Part shown: piece by piece, positions 25,598-31,668 of the stretch
Numbering within the stretch: position 1 is the first letter of the stretch
Layout: the number at the start of each line of letters is the position of its first letter
Assembly (NCBI GenBank): GCA_023256475.1
Contig: JAGDXP010000024.1
Span: 267 to 64,266 of the forward strand
Length of the DNA stretch: 64,000 nucleotides
From: Thermoplasmata archaeon
GTDB taxonomy: Archaea > Thermoplasmatota > Thermoplasmata > Thermoplasmatales > GCA-001856825
Reading direction: 5' to 3'
Made by a program: the position numbers and the translations under genes
The notes under the pieces: model-generated
Told to the model about the DNA's origin: nothing
Databases searched by the model: none
Seen by the model: the letters and a program-made list of their open reading frames with translations, nothing else

Positions 25598-25939
25598 ATG
25601 ACTAAACTGCTCTATTTAGTTACAAGCGGAGATGATGCACCCCAGAAATTTGATCTTGCCATAAACACAGCACTTCACATGATTGAAAATAAAAGGTTTG
25701 AAGATATAAAATTACTTTTCCTGGGACCAAGCGAAGCAACATTGGCCAAGGCCACAGGACAAAGAAAAGAAATAATTAATAAACTAATAAATTTAGGGGC
25801 AATAGATTCTGCATGCGTTGCATTCGCAAAGAACATGGGAATAGAAAATGAACTGAAGCTTCTGGGTGTTAATCAGGAGCCTTACGGTGCAAGATTGAAG
25901 TATTATTTGGAAAATGGCTATCACGTTGTGAGCTTTTAA
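25598..25939 (+). CDS. DsrE-like small protein
   Basis: YLVTSGDDAPQKFDLAINTALHMI...LGVNQEPYGARLKYYLENGYHVVSF, DsrE/F fold-like. Confidence 0.55.
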   Translation: MTKLLYLVTSGDDAPQKFDLAINTALHMIENKRFEDIKLLFLGPSEATLAKATGQRKEIINKLINLGAIDSACVAFAKNMGIENELKLLGVNQEPYGARLKYYLENGYHVVSF

Positions 25940-27564
25940 TTTATTTGGAAATTTATCATTTTTATTTCGCTTTCTTCTCCAATCGGCGGTATTAGAATAA
26001 TTTTAGAGTCCTTTGGAAGCTTTGATTCAAAGCCCTTAAAGGTTACGAATATTACATCCCTATATCTCGATTTCTTCTCCTGGATTCTTTCAGGCTTTTT
26101 AATATCTGAATATTCGCATTCCACTGGTACTTCTATCCCATTGATTTTAACTACTAGATCAGGTTGGCCGTCACCAATTACTATATTCTCATAGGCATCC
26201 AATCCCAGTGATTTGAAGAACAAGTAAGCTCTTGTTATTAGGTATCTGTGATATAGGCTTTCCCTCCCTTTTATCTTTCTGCTCCCTAAAATCTTCATGT
26301 AACTTTCATTGGGCACGATTTTGTTTCCCTCCAATGATACCAGGTTAAGTGTTGATAAGATATGCAGATAGTAAGGATCTTTCCAGGTTCTTTCATCTAA
26401 GTTCAAGTCACCTTCAAAACCATAGAACTCTCTTGATAACTCAAATATTCTCTCTTTTCTTGCTGAATATCTCATTGACCCTCTGAAGTACATGGATGAA
26501 AATGTATCTGCCCACAGGAATTGATGCTCATGGTTCAGGTGTAGTTCATCCTTTGTAAGATTGTAGAAATCATTCTCTGAACCTTTGAACGCTATGATAT
26601 TGGATACGTTTGTTCTCAAAACCTCATTTATTTTCTGACCTAAAGTGGAAGTGGTTTGTGTAGCTACAACCAGGTTTAAGCCAAATTTTCTGCCTTCGGT
26701 GAGGAATATTTCCGCTATGGAAGGTGTCAAGATCTGGAATTCGTCTATTACAACTGTTACATCTTTCAGCCTGTTGATTATAAGATTGTTCCAGATTTTA
26801 TAAAGGAGCATGATGGAAAATTGCTTCACTATCAATGGAGATGAATATTCTGCTGAGAGGACGATATACAAATCCTTGTCAAGTCTAGCGAAATCTAAGG
26901 AATCGTACTTTGAGGAAAAGGCATTCTTGGAAATTTCGCTGGAAAGAAGTGGCATTAACTTATTTACGCTAGAACTTATATAATCGTATCCTTGGGAATT
27001 GAAGATGCTATAGTACTTCATCTTGTCATTCTCTTCCAGCTCTGACAGAAAGTCCCTTCTTGCATATGGATCCAATAGTATTTCCAGCATGTCCTCGATG
27101 GTTGGATTCACTCTGTATTTTAACAGCAGCTTTGGCAATAAAGTGAATATTAACTCTATTCTTGGACCCCATGTTCCATGTGAGTAAACCTCTTCCCTTG
27201 AGAAAATATCCTTTAGGCTCTTTATCATAAGATCCTCGTTTAGCATCCTCTCATACTGATTTCTGTGTGGGAGTATTCCCATGAGGTTGAATTTCAGGTA
27301 TCCTAGCTTTGAATCTATATAAGGTCTAAGGGCAATTATATGGGAGTCTTGCTTACTGTATTGCCACAGTTCTCCGTGCAAGTCAAACACAATTAACCGT
27401 CTCAATCCTCTGATATTTTCAATCAGGTTTGTCAAGAGGTAAGATTTGCCAGTACCGGTTTTACCTATTATCAATGTGTGCCTTTGAAGTTGCTCCCTGC
27501 TAGCAAGGATCCTTTTCCCTGCTACGCCTATTTCCAATCCTTCCTGTATCTGCCAGAAATCCAA
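25936..27564 (-). CDS. HerA/VirD4-superfamily ATPase with C-terminal PD-(D/E)xK-like domain
   Basis: Walker A IIGKTGTGKSYLLTNL, FDLHGEL, Walker B VVIDEFQILTP, sensor-like ATQTTSTLGQ. C-term 'GDGQPDLVVKINGIEVPVECEYSDIKKPERIQEKKSRY'. Confidence 0.8.
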   Translation of the reverse strand: MDFWQIQEGLEIGVAGKRILASREQLQRHTLIIGKTGTGKSYLLTNLIENIRGLRRLIVFDLHGELWQYSKQDSHIIALRPYIDSKLGYLKFNLMGILPHRNQYERMLNEDLMIKSLKDIFSREEVYSHGTWGPRIELIFTLLPKLLLKYRVNPTIEDMLEILLDPYARRDFLSELEENDKMKYYSIFNSQGYDYISSSVNKLMPLLSSEISKNAFSSKYDSLDFARLDKDLYIVLSAEYSSPLIVKQFSIMLLYKIWNNLIINRLKDVTVVIDEFQILTPSIAEIFLTEGRKFGLNLVVATQTTSTLGQKINEVLRTNVSNIIAFKGSENDFYNLTKDELHLNHEHQFLWADTFSSMYFRGSMRYSARKERIFELSREFYGFEGDLNLDERTWKDPYYLHILSTLNLVSLEGNKIVPNESYMKILGSRKIKGRESLYHRYLITRAYLFFKSLGLDAYENIVIGDGQPDLVVKINGIEVPVECEYSDIKKPERIQEKKSRYRDVIFVTFKGFESKLPKDSKIILIPPIGEESEIKMINFQIN

Positions 27565-28157
27565 GGATTACCACCTCCAATCAAGCTCTCAATTTCCTCA
27601 GAATTCAGAATCGGTCTGTACCCTTTGTTCAGCTGCAGGTTTTGTTTAGAGCCCGGATGATTGTACAGCTTTGGAAGTTCTGTTGCGTAGATTTCCACTT
27701 CGAAGCACATTTGGTAAATTTTCTTGCCCAGTCTGAAACTATCCAGAATCTTAGGCCTGTGAAGCTTGGTTCTTATTATAAGCATATCACCGAGAACCGA
27801 GTACTTTATGAAATCCTCTATCAGCGAATGCTGAAGTTTTAGCAGATATTTTGGTGGTAATGTTGTGTACACATTTCCTTGCCGCGAAGGAAAGTAAGTT
27901 GCTTCCTGAATCCTTACTTCAAAATTGTCTTCGAGATATCTCAGAAAGCTGTCTGAAATACCCTTGGATTGTACTTCAAAGTAACCGTTGTTTCTGATTG
28001 CTACCTCCGATTCCTTATCAATGATAAGCTCTCTGCAAATTGCAAGCAGATCCTGTATTTTCTTTGGCCTTATTGAAAAAATTCGTTCTGCGTCAGCTTT
28101 CGTTTCCAGAATTGCTGCCCCAACAACAAAATATATATACAAAAAAATCTCTATCAT
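27528..28157 (-). CDS. Unknown protein co-transcribed with the ATPase; N-terminal hydrophobic segment
   Basis: Overlaps the ATPase start by 37 nt, SD-like GGTGAG just upstream on the minus strand, 'MIEIFLYIYFVVGAAILE' N-terminus. Confidence 0.65.
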   Translation of the reverse strand: MIEIFLYIYFVVGAAILETKADAERIFSIRPKKIQDLLAICRELIIDKESEVAIRNNGYFEVQSKGISDSFLRYLEDNFEVRIQEATYFPSRQGNVYTTLPPKYLLKLQHSLIEDFIKYSVLGDMLIIRTKLHRPKILDSFRLGKKIYQMCFEVEIYATELPKLYNHPGSKQNLQLNKGYRPILNSEEIESLIGGGNPWISGRYRKDWK

Positions 28158-28180
28158 TTTGTCTCACCTTTTTTCTTTTT

Positions 28181-28452
28181 TCTTGTTTCCTGCAAGAATG
28201 AAAAGCTGACAATATTGCAGCGTATTGAATCTATCAATTTCTATGTGTGTTTATAGCCATGGGATATATATTAATTGGAAGCGATTACTGGATGATAATT
28301 AAGGCCAAAATTTCTTAAAAAATTGTAGTAATGTTTGCTTAGTTTCATAGGCATTTTATTTTTTTATTTTAATCATAGTCTTCACTACCGTAGAGCCCGA
28401 ATACTCGAGCATAAGTCACCGAAATAACTCGGTGAATGCGCAGGAAACAAGA
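28181..28452. repeat. 13-bp perfect inverted repeat pair with 246-nt separation
   Basis: TCTTGTTTCCTGC (28181-28193) and GCAGGAAACAAGA (28440-28452) are exact reverse complements. Confidence 0.8.
28409..28439. other. Bulged hairpin in intergenic region (possible ncRNA or protein-binding site)
   Basis: GCAT-AAG-TCACCGA-AATAAC-TCGGTGA-ATGC: 11 bp with one 3-nt bulge. Confidence 0.5.
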
Positions 28453-28598
28453 CAATTTCATTATGAATAGATCATATTTAAATTTTATTGTATCTATTTA
28501 CCTTGCCTATTGAAAATCTTAGTTCATAGAATGACATCAATTTGACAAATCATTGTAACAAGCCAGTTCTAGATATAGGGGTTTTCTTGATAATGATA

Positions 28599-28632
28599 GT
28601 TCTCTGCAATTAGAGAACACGTCGAAGTGTTC
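28599..28632. other. Two overlapping hairpins sharing an arm
   Basis: GTTCTCT-GCAATT-AGAGAAC and GAACAC-GTCGAA-GTGTTC share GAAC. Confidence 0.6.
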
Positions 28633-28689
28633 CCAACCTTTTATCTACAATCATGCTCAGTATTATGGCATGTATTTATTTTCAGTCAA

Positions 28690-28920
28690 TCATCTCTGTT
28701 CTCCTTGACAATATCATGAAATCCAATGTTATTATGAGTTCCCAGTGCCATGGCAATATTCATGTCATTATTCAGGGAATTTTCTCATGACTTTTACCCT
28801 ATTCCGTATATCTTGAGAATCACAATAATCTTCACCATAGGGGCACTGTAATACTCTCTCTTCCAGTACTTGAAAGCAATATCATCCACGATATCAATTA
28901 TGGCCAGGATGTTATGTGAA
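28690..28920 (-). pseudogene. N-terminal remnant of an IS4/IS5-like transposase with in-frame stops
   Basis: Minus-strand single frame: SHNILAIIDIVDDIAFKYWKREYYSAPMVKIIVILKIYGIG*KS*ENSLNNDMNIAMALGTHNNIGFHDIVKENRDD*. Confidence 0.55.
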
Positions 28921-29305
28921 TACATACGTATATGAATTTCAAAATATTAAATGCAAAAACATACATCCAACATTTTACGTAATATGATGTTTTCATTAAG
29001 ACAAATCTCCGTTGATCTAAAATGTTATTATTTTTAAGAGTTTAGATCATAAAGATTGATTGTTATTATTGGAGTGATTGATTATCAGTATGGTTGGAAA
29101 TCAACAAATTTCAATTTCTAAATGGTGAATCACTATTGGGGATTCTACAACTTTTACCTTCTTAAAGTATTTTCATATGAAGCATTGTATCGGTCAAGAA
29201 ATGAAAAATGGGCATTCTAATGAGACTTCTGGGATGCCCTCATTTAAAGATTGAATAATAATTTAAACCGTGAATCCTGATCTGAGCTAACAGGTTAGAA
29301 GGCTG

Positions 29306-29473
29306 CTATTTTTTATATTTGTTTCTTGGTTTAACTGACCTTCTTATTGACCAGGACGTAAGTCTGAAGAATGCGTATGATAGCATATAGATAAGCATAG
29401 GGATAAATATAACATATGGTGGTAAATTGCCAATTCTTCCGAAATTAACCCTTGAAATGAATCCTATTGCCAT
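29306..29473 (-). CDS. Short membrane-protein ORF or C-terminal remnant of a transporter (55 aa)
   Basis: ATG...TAG encoding MAIGFISRVNFGRIGNLPPYVIFIPMLIYMLSYAFFRLTSWSIRRSVKPRNKYKK. Confidence 0.3.
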   Translation of the reverse strand: MAIGFISRVNFGRIGNLPPYVIFIPMLIYMLSYAFFRLTSWSIRRSVKPRNKYKK

Positions 29474-29700
29474 GGAAGCCTAATTAATTTGATCTTGATT
29501 TCCTATCCGCTTCATACGCATAAAAAATCTTGAGAGCTTTTAGGAATATTACTCTCTGAATTTAGGAAACCCTTTTAATTTTACAGATTTAAATGATTAA
29601 ATGAAATTAATTTAAGATCAAATTGATGATCAAATATCAGTTAAAATGACTTCAACTATCCAAAGAGTGCAAATTTAAATATTTAATAAATAATACTCCA

Positions 29701-30315: not shown

Positions 30316-30988
30316 AGAGACGGTTGCCCTCTATCTAAAGAGCATAGAGGACTGCTATCTTAAGGAATTACCAGTGAAAATAATATCCATTGAGGAAGAT
30401 GGATATATTTTAGACAGAACCATAATGCATTATGAGGGTGGAGGGCAGCCCGGTGACAGGGGCAAGCTTATCATAGGAGATAAAGAAGTATTTATCGTGA
30501 ATGTAATAAAGAGAAGGAACAGGATAGTCCATCTGGCTAAGGAATTAGTGGAAGGCAAGGAAGGCATTTTGAAGCTTGACTGGGAGAGAAGATACGAAAT
30601 AATGAAGATGCACACTCTTCAGCATGCCATATCCGCATTGCTTTATGACAAACATGGCATCAAAACAATACAATCTCAGGTTTATAAGGGATACGGGGAA
30701 ATTTTACTTGAAAGAGAAATTTACGATTTGGAAGATGAATTCTACTTAATAAATGAAATGGCCAGAGAAGTCAAGAGATATTCCATTCAGAAGGAGAACC
30801 TCAATCCTTCTCTACTAAAAAGATGCAATTTAGAAAGATTGCCTAAATCATTGACAAAGGTTTCCATAGTTGAAATAGATGGCATCGATAAATGTGCGTG
30901 TGCTGGTACCCATGTGAAGAATACCAGCGAAATTGGAAAATACTGGCTAAGAACAATGGGGAGAAGAATAGAATTCGGTAAATTTTAG
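30296..30988 (+). CDS. alaX: Stand-alone alanyl-tRNA editing protein AlaX
   Basis: MHYEGGGQPGDRG, HTLQHAISALLYD, CACAGTHVKNTSEIG. Confidence 0.92.
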   Translation: MKLSLSEETVALYLKSIEDCYLKELPVKIISIEEDGYILDRTIMHYEGGGQPGDRGKLIIGDKEVFIVNVIKRRNRIVHLAKELVEGKEGILKLDWERRYEIMKMHTLQHAISALLYDKHGIKTIQSQVYKGYGEILLEREIYDLEDEFYLINEMAREVKRYSIQKENLNPSLLKRCNLERLPKSLTKVSIVEIDGIDKCACAGTHVKNTSEIGKYWLRTMGRRIEFGKF

Positions 30989-31668
30989 AAATAAACATCT
31001 GACCTCGAAAGAACCTCCATACCCCTTTCACTTATTAAATAGGGGTGCGCCTTCCTGTCGTGATTCATTAATCTCATTTTCAGTATCCTGATTATGGATG
31101 TGGTAGTCCCCTTCTCATCATCGAACCTGTTCTGGAGTGATATGACTCCATCACCAACGAACTCAGCAAAACCGTCCCTTGAAGAATATGGGCTCTCAAT
31201 TTTGGATTCCGCCAAAAGATAAGTGGTAACATTCAGGTCCTTCAGCGAATCTGAAAGGTTTAGCAATATGGATCTCATTTCCGATTCGCTTTCCGCAGCC
31301 ATGAGCACAATGGAAACGCTATCTACTACCAGCCTTGAAGGCATTATCTCTTGGATATCCGACTTAATGTTCTCCTTATTTTTCAATCGTTCAAGGAAAT
31401 CAAGAATTCCTGGACTCATAATAATAAAATTCTCATCTTCTAGGTTCATTCCATATTGCTTGGATGCCCTCAAAATGCTTTCCTTCCTTTCTTCCAATGA
31501 CAGATATAGAACTCTTTCTCCCAGTTCTAAACCCCTTTTGGCAAAATGGAGTGCCATGGTGGTCTTTCCGGTACCGTATCCGCCGAGCACCACGACTGTA
31601 TGACCCTTTGGAATTCCACCCCCCAGCATCTCATTGAGCCCAATTATACCCGTATCCACCAGTTCCAT
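30985..31668 (-). CDS. KaiC/Rad55-like RecA-superfamily ATPase
   Basis: GLNEMLGGGIPKGHTVVVLGGYGTGKTTMALHF, 'PSRLVVDSVSIVL'. Confidence 0.88.
   Translation of the reverse strand: MELVDTGIIGLNEMLGGGIPKGHTVVVLGGYGTGKTTMALHFAKRGLELGERVLYLSLEERKESILRASKQYGMNLEDENFIIMSPGILDFLERLKNKENIKSDIQEIMPSRLVVDSVSIVLMAAESESEMRSILLNLSDSLKDLNVTTYLLAESKIESPYSSRDGFAEFVGDGVISLQNRFDDEKGTTTSIIRILKMRLMNHDRKAHPYLISERGMEVLSRSDVYF

Follow-up and report, generated by a model that had tools for sequence, protein, structure and literature searches.

A chromosomal VirD4/TrwB-like ATPase with a nuclease-like C-terminal domain and its partner gene in Thermoplasma-related archaea: candidates for a role in DNA transfer

Introduction

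What does an ATPase of the HerA/VirD4 kind, carrying a nuclease-like tail, do in an archaeal chromosome where no conjugation genes lie beside it? The question is raised by two overlapping genes on the minus strand of the window, by which we mean the whole stretch of 64,000 nucleotides analysed here. A sequence-only reading had placed the pair beside an IS-scarred intergenic zone, taken it for an accessory system and proposed that it serves defence or DNA translocation. Pairs of HerA-type ATPases and nucleases are established in defence, and defence genes are normally patchy in their distribution. We find that the two genes are an inherited chromosomal pair in acid-loving archaea related to Thermoplasma, and that they may help these organisms exchange chromosomal DNA.

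Results

The gene pair and its locus

The list of open reading frames bears out the two genes and the 37-nt overlap between them, which probably couples their translation.

25936-27564, minus strand: ATPase gene, 542 aa, TTG start (ORF list); VirD4/TrwB-type coupling-protein-like ATPase by Pfam, TrwB fold match and a clade (100/98) across the order
27528-28157, minus strand: partner gene, 209 aa, ATG start (ORF list)
27528-27564, minus strand: overlap of the two genes, 37 nt
27571-27578, minus strand: Shine-Dalgarno-like GGAGGTGG, 6 nt 5' of the ATPase TTG (read from the sequence)
28163-28169, minus strand: Shine-Dalgarno-like AGGTGAG, 5 nt 5' of the partner ATG (read from the sequence)

Compared with a congeneric genome (G001; NG86, dS near saturation), the ATPase has a dN/dS of ~0.03 and the partner one of ~0.10, and such low values mark the two as genuine genes on which purifying selection acts. 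Each of the five genomes of the family whose loci were compared preserves the gene order around the pair (5/5), and the neighbours are housekeeping genes for queuosine, tRNA and other functions (among them QueC, a PTPS/QueD-like protein and a Trm5-like protein). No defence, IS or plasmid gene was found next to the pair, and neither in the window nor at the other loci compared does a relaxase or type IV secretion system (T4SS) gene adjoin it.

Among the genomes compared, which are partly incomplete MAGs, a full-length ATPase is encoded in 14 of 15 from the window's family (f1), with a fragment in the remaining one (G012), in 5/5 from family f3, where two copies end at contig ends, and in most genera of f6. 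It is absent from f2, f4, f5, g9, g11 and g25, and missing from some complete genomes of the order. The window-type ATPases form one clade (support 100/98) that spans three families of the order, and its branches follow the families, which points to vertical inheritance with losses. A syntenic locus, an order-wide clade of vertical appearance and housekeeping neighbours do not suit the accessory module that had been proposed. The IS-scarred zone found no support either: the intergenic stretch of 1.45 kb beside the pair occurs only once in the genome, although an old, decayed single-copy IS there is conceivable. The non-coding stretch at 28158-29700 is ~1.5 kb long in the window; two other genomes (G002 and G004) have ~0.5 kb there.

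A plasmid-borne origin was rejected, as only three weak plasmid matches were obtained, none with more than 62% coverage. The homologues are not embedded in plasmids, a situation that would have contradicted the sequence-only reading. A viral origin was likewise rejected, the ATPase having weak viral relatives only and the partner none.

The PADLOC model mad8 matches the window ATPase (E 9e-20) and all 24 of its relatives. When ten neighbours were scanned for mad genes, the Trm5-like methyltransferase matched mad2, a KaiC-like ATPase matched mad8 and nothing else was found. The KaiC-like ATPase lies at 30985-31668 in the window and matches mad8 at E 7.5e-8. A model that also matches this protein reads the P-loop fold and is unspecific. 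Membership in a MADS defence system was therefore rejected, since such a system would call for both a specific mad8 match and further mad genes nearby, and so was a defence island, given the synteny, the near-universal presence in the family and the unspecific model. The defence function that had been proposed fits poorly with a syntenic locus, a vertical-looking clade and neighbours of a housekeeping kind.

A motor of the VirD4/TrwB type

The Walker A and B motifs that had been called intact are both present, together with a third signature.

27442-27465, minus strand: Walker A GKTGTGKS, aa 34-41; G34, G39 and K40 invariant in 24 relatives
27160-27171, minus strand: WGPR signature, aa 132-135, a hallmark of the family; invariant in 24 relatives
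26740-26754, minus strand: Walker B VVIDE, aa 271-275; D274 and E275 invariant in 24 relatives

The WGPR signature is common to related ATPases of bacteria and other archaea. In Pfam the window protein matches DUF87, HerA_C and TrwB_AAD_bind (PF10412, E 7e-9); among its 24 relatives TrwB_AAD_bind is found in every one (24/24) and TraG-D_C in 19. An AlphaFold model, built on a 9-sequence alignment (mean pLDDT 69, with the ATPase and nuclease core mostly at 70-90), has TrwB (1e9s, E 4e-11) as its best PDB fold match, with HerA (4d2i, 2.7e-9) behind. The top fold match, the TrwB_AAD_bind and TraG-D_C domains and the WGPR signature together make it almost certain that the ATPase is a motor of the VirD4/TrwB type, so the description as HerA/VirD4-like was sound and can be narrowed to VirD4/TrwB-like. 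Identity with canonical HerA was rejected, since the NCBIfam HerA equivalog models score only 14-28 bits on the protein, far under their cut-offs of 800-970, and a separate HerA of 479 aa is encoded in the genome (G000:C12).

A C-terminal winged-helix-like segment and PD-(D/E)xK-like domain

Beyond the motor, two further segments can be delimited in the ATPase.

26290-26394, minus strand: winged-helix-like segment, aa ~391-425 (H391-395, H397-405, E409-412, E415-418); low-confidence part of the model
25990-26262, minus strand: PD-(D/E)xK-fold domain, aa ~435-525; core block of the model at pLDDT 67-87, with invariant columns

A relative (L042) has a weak HTH_45 match in the winged-helix region. 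The C-terminal segment that had been singled out as nuclease-like is modelled as a helix (435-452), three strands (456-459, 470-474 and 477-483), a further helix (491-500) and a strand (505-509), and this alpha-beta-beta-beta-alpha-beta order is that of the PD-(D/E)xK core, at moderate confidence (AlphaFold; block pLDDT 67-87). Structure prediction, a check that had been proposed for both proteins, yields a nuclease-like fold here, and we consider it very probable that the tail has one. H439, D469, E482-x-E484 and D487 are invariant in 24 aligned sequences whose domain identity to the window protein is 18-88%, and the remark that ExE stands in place of ExK accordingly holds for 24/24 aligned relatives.

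Other VirD4-like proteins from Thermoplasmatota lineages have C-termini homologous to this domain (hhalign 97.8%, E 1e-12), and ExE is found in nearly all C-termini of the wider archaeal VirD4-like family (L070, L071, L168 and L174-L187 in this comparison). That wider C-terminal family matches PF13814 (Replic_Relax) at 66% probability (P 6e-5); pooled with the C-termini of the window's order it scores 31.7 against PF13814, compared with a maximum of 12.1 among 60 shuffled or reversed controls. The C-terminus of the window's order by itself gave an insignificant result against PF13814 (P 0.05), the C-terminal piece of the ATPase has no PF13814 match up to E 10, and a search of PDB sequences with the C-terminal profile returned no meaningful match. 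To judge from these profile comparisons, the domain resembles MOBC (Replic_Relax) relaxases and would be distantly related to them; because the ATPase has no PF13814 match, it is not filed as MOBC. Members of PF13814 carry ExD in 13 of 15 cases, likewise without the lysine, so that ExE alone does not mark the site as inactive.

CONJscan uses PF13814 as its MobC relaxase family, and in streptococcal IMEs this family accompanies VirD4 (PMC5357655). In Actinobacteriota, PF13814 genes directly adjoin related coupling-type ATPases (L059, L151, L152, L153 and L157). A relaxase-family gene next to the ATPase there, and a relaxase-like domain fused to the ATPase in the window protein, provide a fusion argument for a shared function. 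The Actinobacteriota ATPases at these loci are mostly one-piece proteins with an N-domain. A plasmid search with a Replic_Relax protein gave no match.

The partner gene

The partner is present in all 14 genomes of the family (f1) with an intact ATPase, and it lies directly upstream of the ATPase wherever the locus was read. It diverges fast, with ~20-29% identity outside the genus, as against ~45-50% for the ATPase. Its hydrophobic N-terminal stretch, noted from the sequence, is real and recurs in the second genome of the genus, whereas the rest of the family lacks it. Conservation with the ATPase likewise holds within the family and not in parts of the order, where the partner is missing or unrecognisable: several f6 genera have no partner-like gene at that position, and genus g13 has a ~206-aa gene there with no detectable similarity to it. 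The last 60 aa of the partner are related to a ~220-aa upstream gene of family f3 (hhalign P 1e-4). All partners placed in one alignment are very divergent, and a model of the partner from its single sequence was unusable (pLDDT 37).

In f28 archaea, the separate gene upstream of the ATPase shows homology to the N-domain that bacterial relatives carry within a single protein (91.5%, E 9e-7) and so sets a precedent for the splitting off of that domain. Direct profile comparison with bacterial N-domains was significant for f28 only; the f1 and f6 partners gave insignificant results. That the f1 partner is the same N-domain is suggested by its position and size and by the weak link between f1 and f3, and the 209-aa protein is thus probably a split-off N-terminal domain of the coupling ATPase. 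A three-gene archaeal cassette (L070:4079-7141 and L071:5416-8435) comprises a 106-aa protein with two TM segments, an N-domain protein of 284-304 aa and a VirD4-like ATPase of 621-631 aa with a winged helix and a PD-ExE tail; an Orc1/Cdc6-like gene lies near the cassette in L070 (f28).

A T4SS-like cluster and a third gene family elsewhere in the genome

The absence of VirB4 and pilus genes that had been remarked on is true of the window, but another contig of the same genome carries a T4SS-like cluster (L068:4488-10007, G000:C7), unlinked to the pair. It encodes a pilin, a polytopic VirB6-like protein, a VirB3-like protein with two TM segments, a VirB4-like AAA_10 ATPase and a second ATPase resembling a type IV coupling protein (T4CP). 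The pilin-like protein has 119 aa, a signal-peptide-like start and two hydrophobic stretches, and its homologue in G003 matches PF18895. The window genome thereby encodes a gene set of the Ced/Ted type (VirB2-like pilin, VirB6-like channel and VirB4-like ATPase), and the cluster looks like the Thermoplasmatales counterpart of those systems. T4SS components were reported earlier in Cuniculiplasma (PMC5155288).

Clusters of pilin, VirB6 and VirB3/VirB4 genes occur in f1, f3 and f6, G033 included, and a VirB6/VirB4 cluster also in f4. The T4SS-derived cluster was seen in several families of the order (L068, L069 and L193-L198), with a T4CP-like ATPase added in the f1 copies. The f6 clusters that were read (L193-L195) have no T4CP, which leaves the window-type ATPase as the sole VirD4-like protein detected in G033 and G041. 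Cluster genes, judged by eye from E-values and open-frame lengths, are present in 29/33 genomes with the ATPase (counting G012, which has a fragment only) vs 15/28 without it (Fisher p 0.004; by genus p 0.02), a co-occurrence confounded by kinship, phylogeny being handled by the genus counts only. Cluster genes also occur without the ATPase, in f4, g11, g9 and g25. With the pair unlinked, the cluster found where the ATPase is absent and an own T4CP-like ATPase in f1, the link to the apparatus rests on this confounded co-occurrence.

Many f6 genomes have, next to the ATPase, a gene of a ~300-aa protein family with the motif FFxDWFYxxFPK and no Pfam match, and several f1 genomes have one no more than about 3 kb away (in the window genome the gene is unlinked to the pair, at G000:C23:74474-75268). 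The family was detected in 22/33 genomes with the ATPase and in 0/28 without (p 1e-8; by genus p 0.001). Members include the following.

L078:11345-12268: ~300-aa family member
L032:562-1446: ~300-aa family member
L033:2575-3498: ~300-aa family member
L054:9857-10789: ~300-aa family member

Discussion

We give a probability of about 0.45 to the reading that the pair is a domesticated chromosomal type IV coupling protein with a relaxase-like nuclease, acting in the transfer of chromosomal DNA. Its motor would be the VirD4/TrwB-type ATPase, presumably a hexameric ring, to which the 209-aa partner would supply the N-terminal accessory domain in trans; in the window genus the partner may also tether the ATPase to the membrane. 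The winged helix in the C-terminus would bind chromosomal DNA, the PD-(D/E)xK-type (PD-ExE) domain would nick or trim it, and the ATPase would pump it in concert with a Ced-like apparatus (pilin-VirB6-VirB3/VirB4), leading to exchange of chromosomal DNA between cells. The lack of a physical link between the pair and the T4SS-like cluster counts against transfer, and the replacement of ExK by ExE might mean that cleavage has been lost. For a VirD4/TrwB-like ATPase with a nuclease-like tail a function in DNA translocation is nevertheless probable, and this part of the earlier proposal survives. A further, tentative idea is that a domesticated archaeal machine for DNA exchange has in this pair its missing unit, on the donor side or for processing, with the ~300-aa proteins as a helper family that co-occurs only with it, and that the ATPase-nuclease fusion would be the first relaxase-like enzyme of archaeal chromosomes.

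The alternative that deserves most weight, although we regard it as unlikely, is a second HerA-NurA-like machine that processes DNA ends for recombination repair, its ring feeding broken DNA to its own nuclease with no transfer between cells. The union of a HerA-superfamily motor with a nuclease fold, the DUF87, HerA_C and PADLOC HerA matches, the presence of HerA (4d2i) among the fold matches, the vertical, housekeeping-like inheritance and the unlinked transfer apparatus would all suit such a machine. However, a canonical HerA is already encoded in the genome (G000:C12, 479 aa), TrwB outscores HerA in the fold search, and no Rad50, Mre11 or NurA is found near the pair; the C-terminal domain is related to archaeal VirD4-like proteins and distantly to MOBC relaxases, and the gene is missing from complete genomes of the order. 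The same motor could instead scan or pump the DNA of plasmids or viruses for its nuclease to degrade, as the known defence pairs of HerA and nuclease and the mad8 matches in the window ATPase and all 24 relatives might suggest. We think this improbable, because the pair is syntenic, nearly universal in the family and low in dN/dS whereas defence genes are usually patchy, because its neighbours are housekeeping genes with no further defence-system genes among the ten scanned, and because mad8 also matches the KaiC-like ATPase and is unspecific.

Two other readings would take away the nuclease or the function. The nuclease-like domain could be catalytically dead and serve only as the tail with which a translocase, for example one for chromosome segregation, binds DNA or protein. 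ExE instead of ExK would agree with this, as would the segregation motors within the FtsK/HerA superfamily, but one would not expect a dead site to keep H, D, E, E and D invariant across 24 sequences (18-88% identity to the window protein), ExE recurs in most other archaeal relatives, and MOBC-type members carry ExD (13/15), also without the lysine; a dead domain is accordingly somewhat less probable still than a role in defence. We put least trust in the view that the pair was left behind by an integrated conjugative element that lost its other genes, and that it is kept without its first function. Mobile elements typically have VirD4 and MOBC-like parts, and the relative L070 of f28 has an Orc1/Cdc6-like gene nearby; yet no integrase or plasmid gene stands beside the pair, whose chromosomal position is the same in each of the family genomes compared, the three plasmid matches are weak with none above 62% coverage, and strong purifying selection acts on a vertical clade of order-level divergence.

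On the reading that we favour, a coupling protein with a relaxase-like nuclease, several known systems invite comparison. The window ATPase shares its fold and its TrwB_AAD_bind and TraG-D_C domains with the VirD4/TrwB coupling proteins, but it is chromosomal and vertically inherited, has no T4SS adjoining, apparently has its N-domain encoded as a separate gene and carries a nuclease-like domain fused to its C-terminus. Of the N-terminal membrane anchor of VirD4/TrwB there is here one hydrophobic stretch, in the partner of the window genus only. MOBC relaxases combine a winged helix with a core of the restriction-endonuclease type. Members such as pAD1 TraX and CloDF13 MobC (PF13814) would resemble the window domain in the succession of a winged helix and an H/PD/Ex(D/E)/K-R core, and they are likewise associated with a VirD4-like ATPase; the window domain differs in its fusion to the ATPase, in ExE for ExD, in having no PF13814 match and in having no known oriT.

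Units that pair a HerA-superfamily ring with a nuclease offer a second comparison. In Thermus, efficient donation of DNA requires the HerA-type motor TdtA, the nuclease NurA and a restriction enzyme (PMC5365140). This transjugation unit is alike in joining such a motor with a nuclease, and it is required for donating chromosomal DNA; TdtA, however, is located on an ICE, and NurA is encoded separately and is another kind of nuclease. The HerA-NurA end-resection complex is likewise a ring translocase with a nuclease, but a separate canonical HerA is encoded in this genome, the nuclease domain is different, and the Rad50/Mre11 context is lacking here.

Closest to the proposed role are the systems of other archaea. 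VirD4- and VirB4-type genes of the same order have been described in Cuniculiplasma (arCOG04816 VirD4 family and arCOG04034 VirB4 cluster; PMC5155288), in a report that describes no nuclease domain, partner gene or mechanism. The Ced system of the Sulfolobales and the Ted system of the Thermoproteales are domesticated chromosomal sets of VirB2, VirB6 and VirB4, as is found here elsewhere in the genome, but neither a relaxase nor a motor for the export of donor DNA is known for them (PMC9905601, PMC11868833). With no VirD4-type motor described in Ced or Ted, the window pair would amount to an extra motor and nuclease. The window ATPase combines in a single polypeptide what are two neighbouring genes in some bacteria, a VirD4-like ATPase and a MOBC relaxase, and, as a vertically inherited VirD4-type ATPase with a MOBC-like nuclease domain, it is a candidate for both the relaxase and the donor motor.
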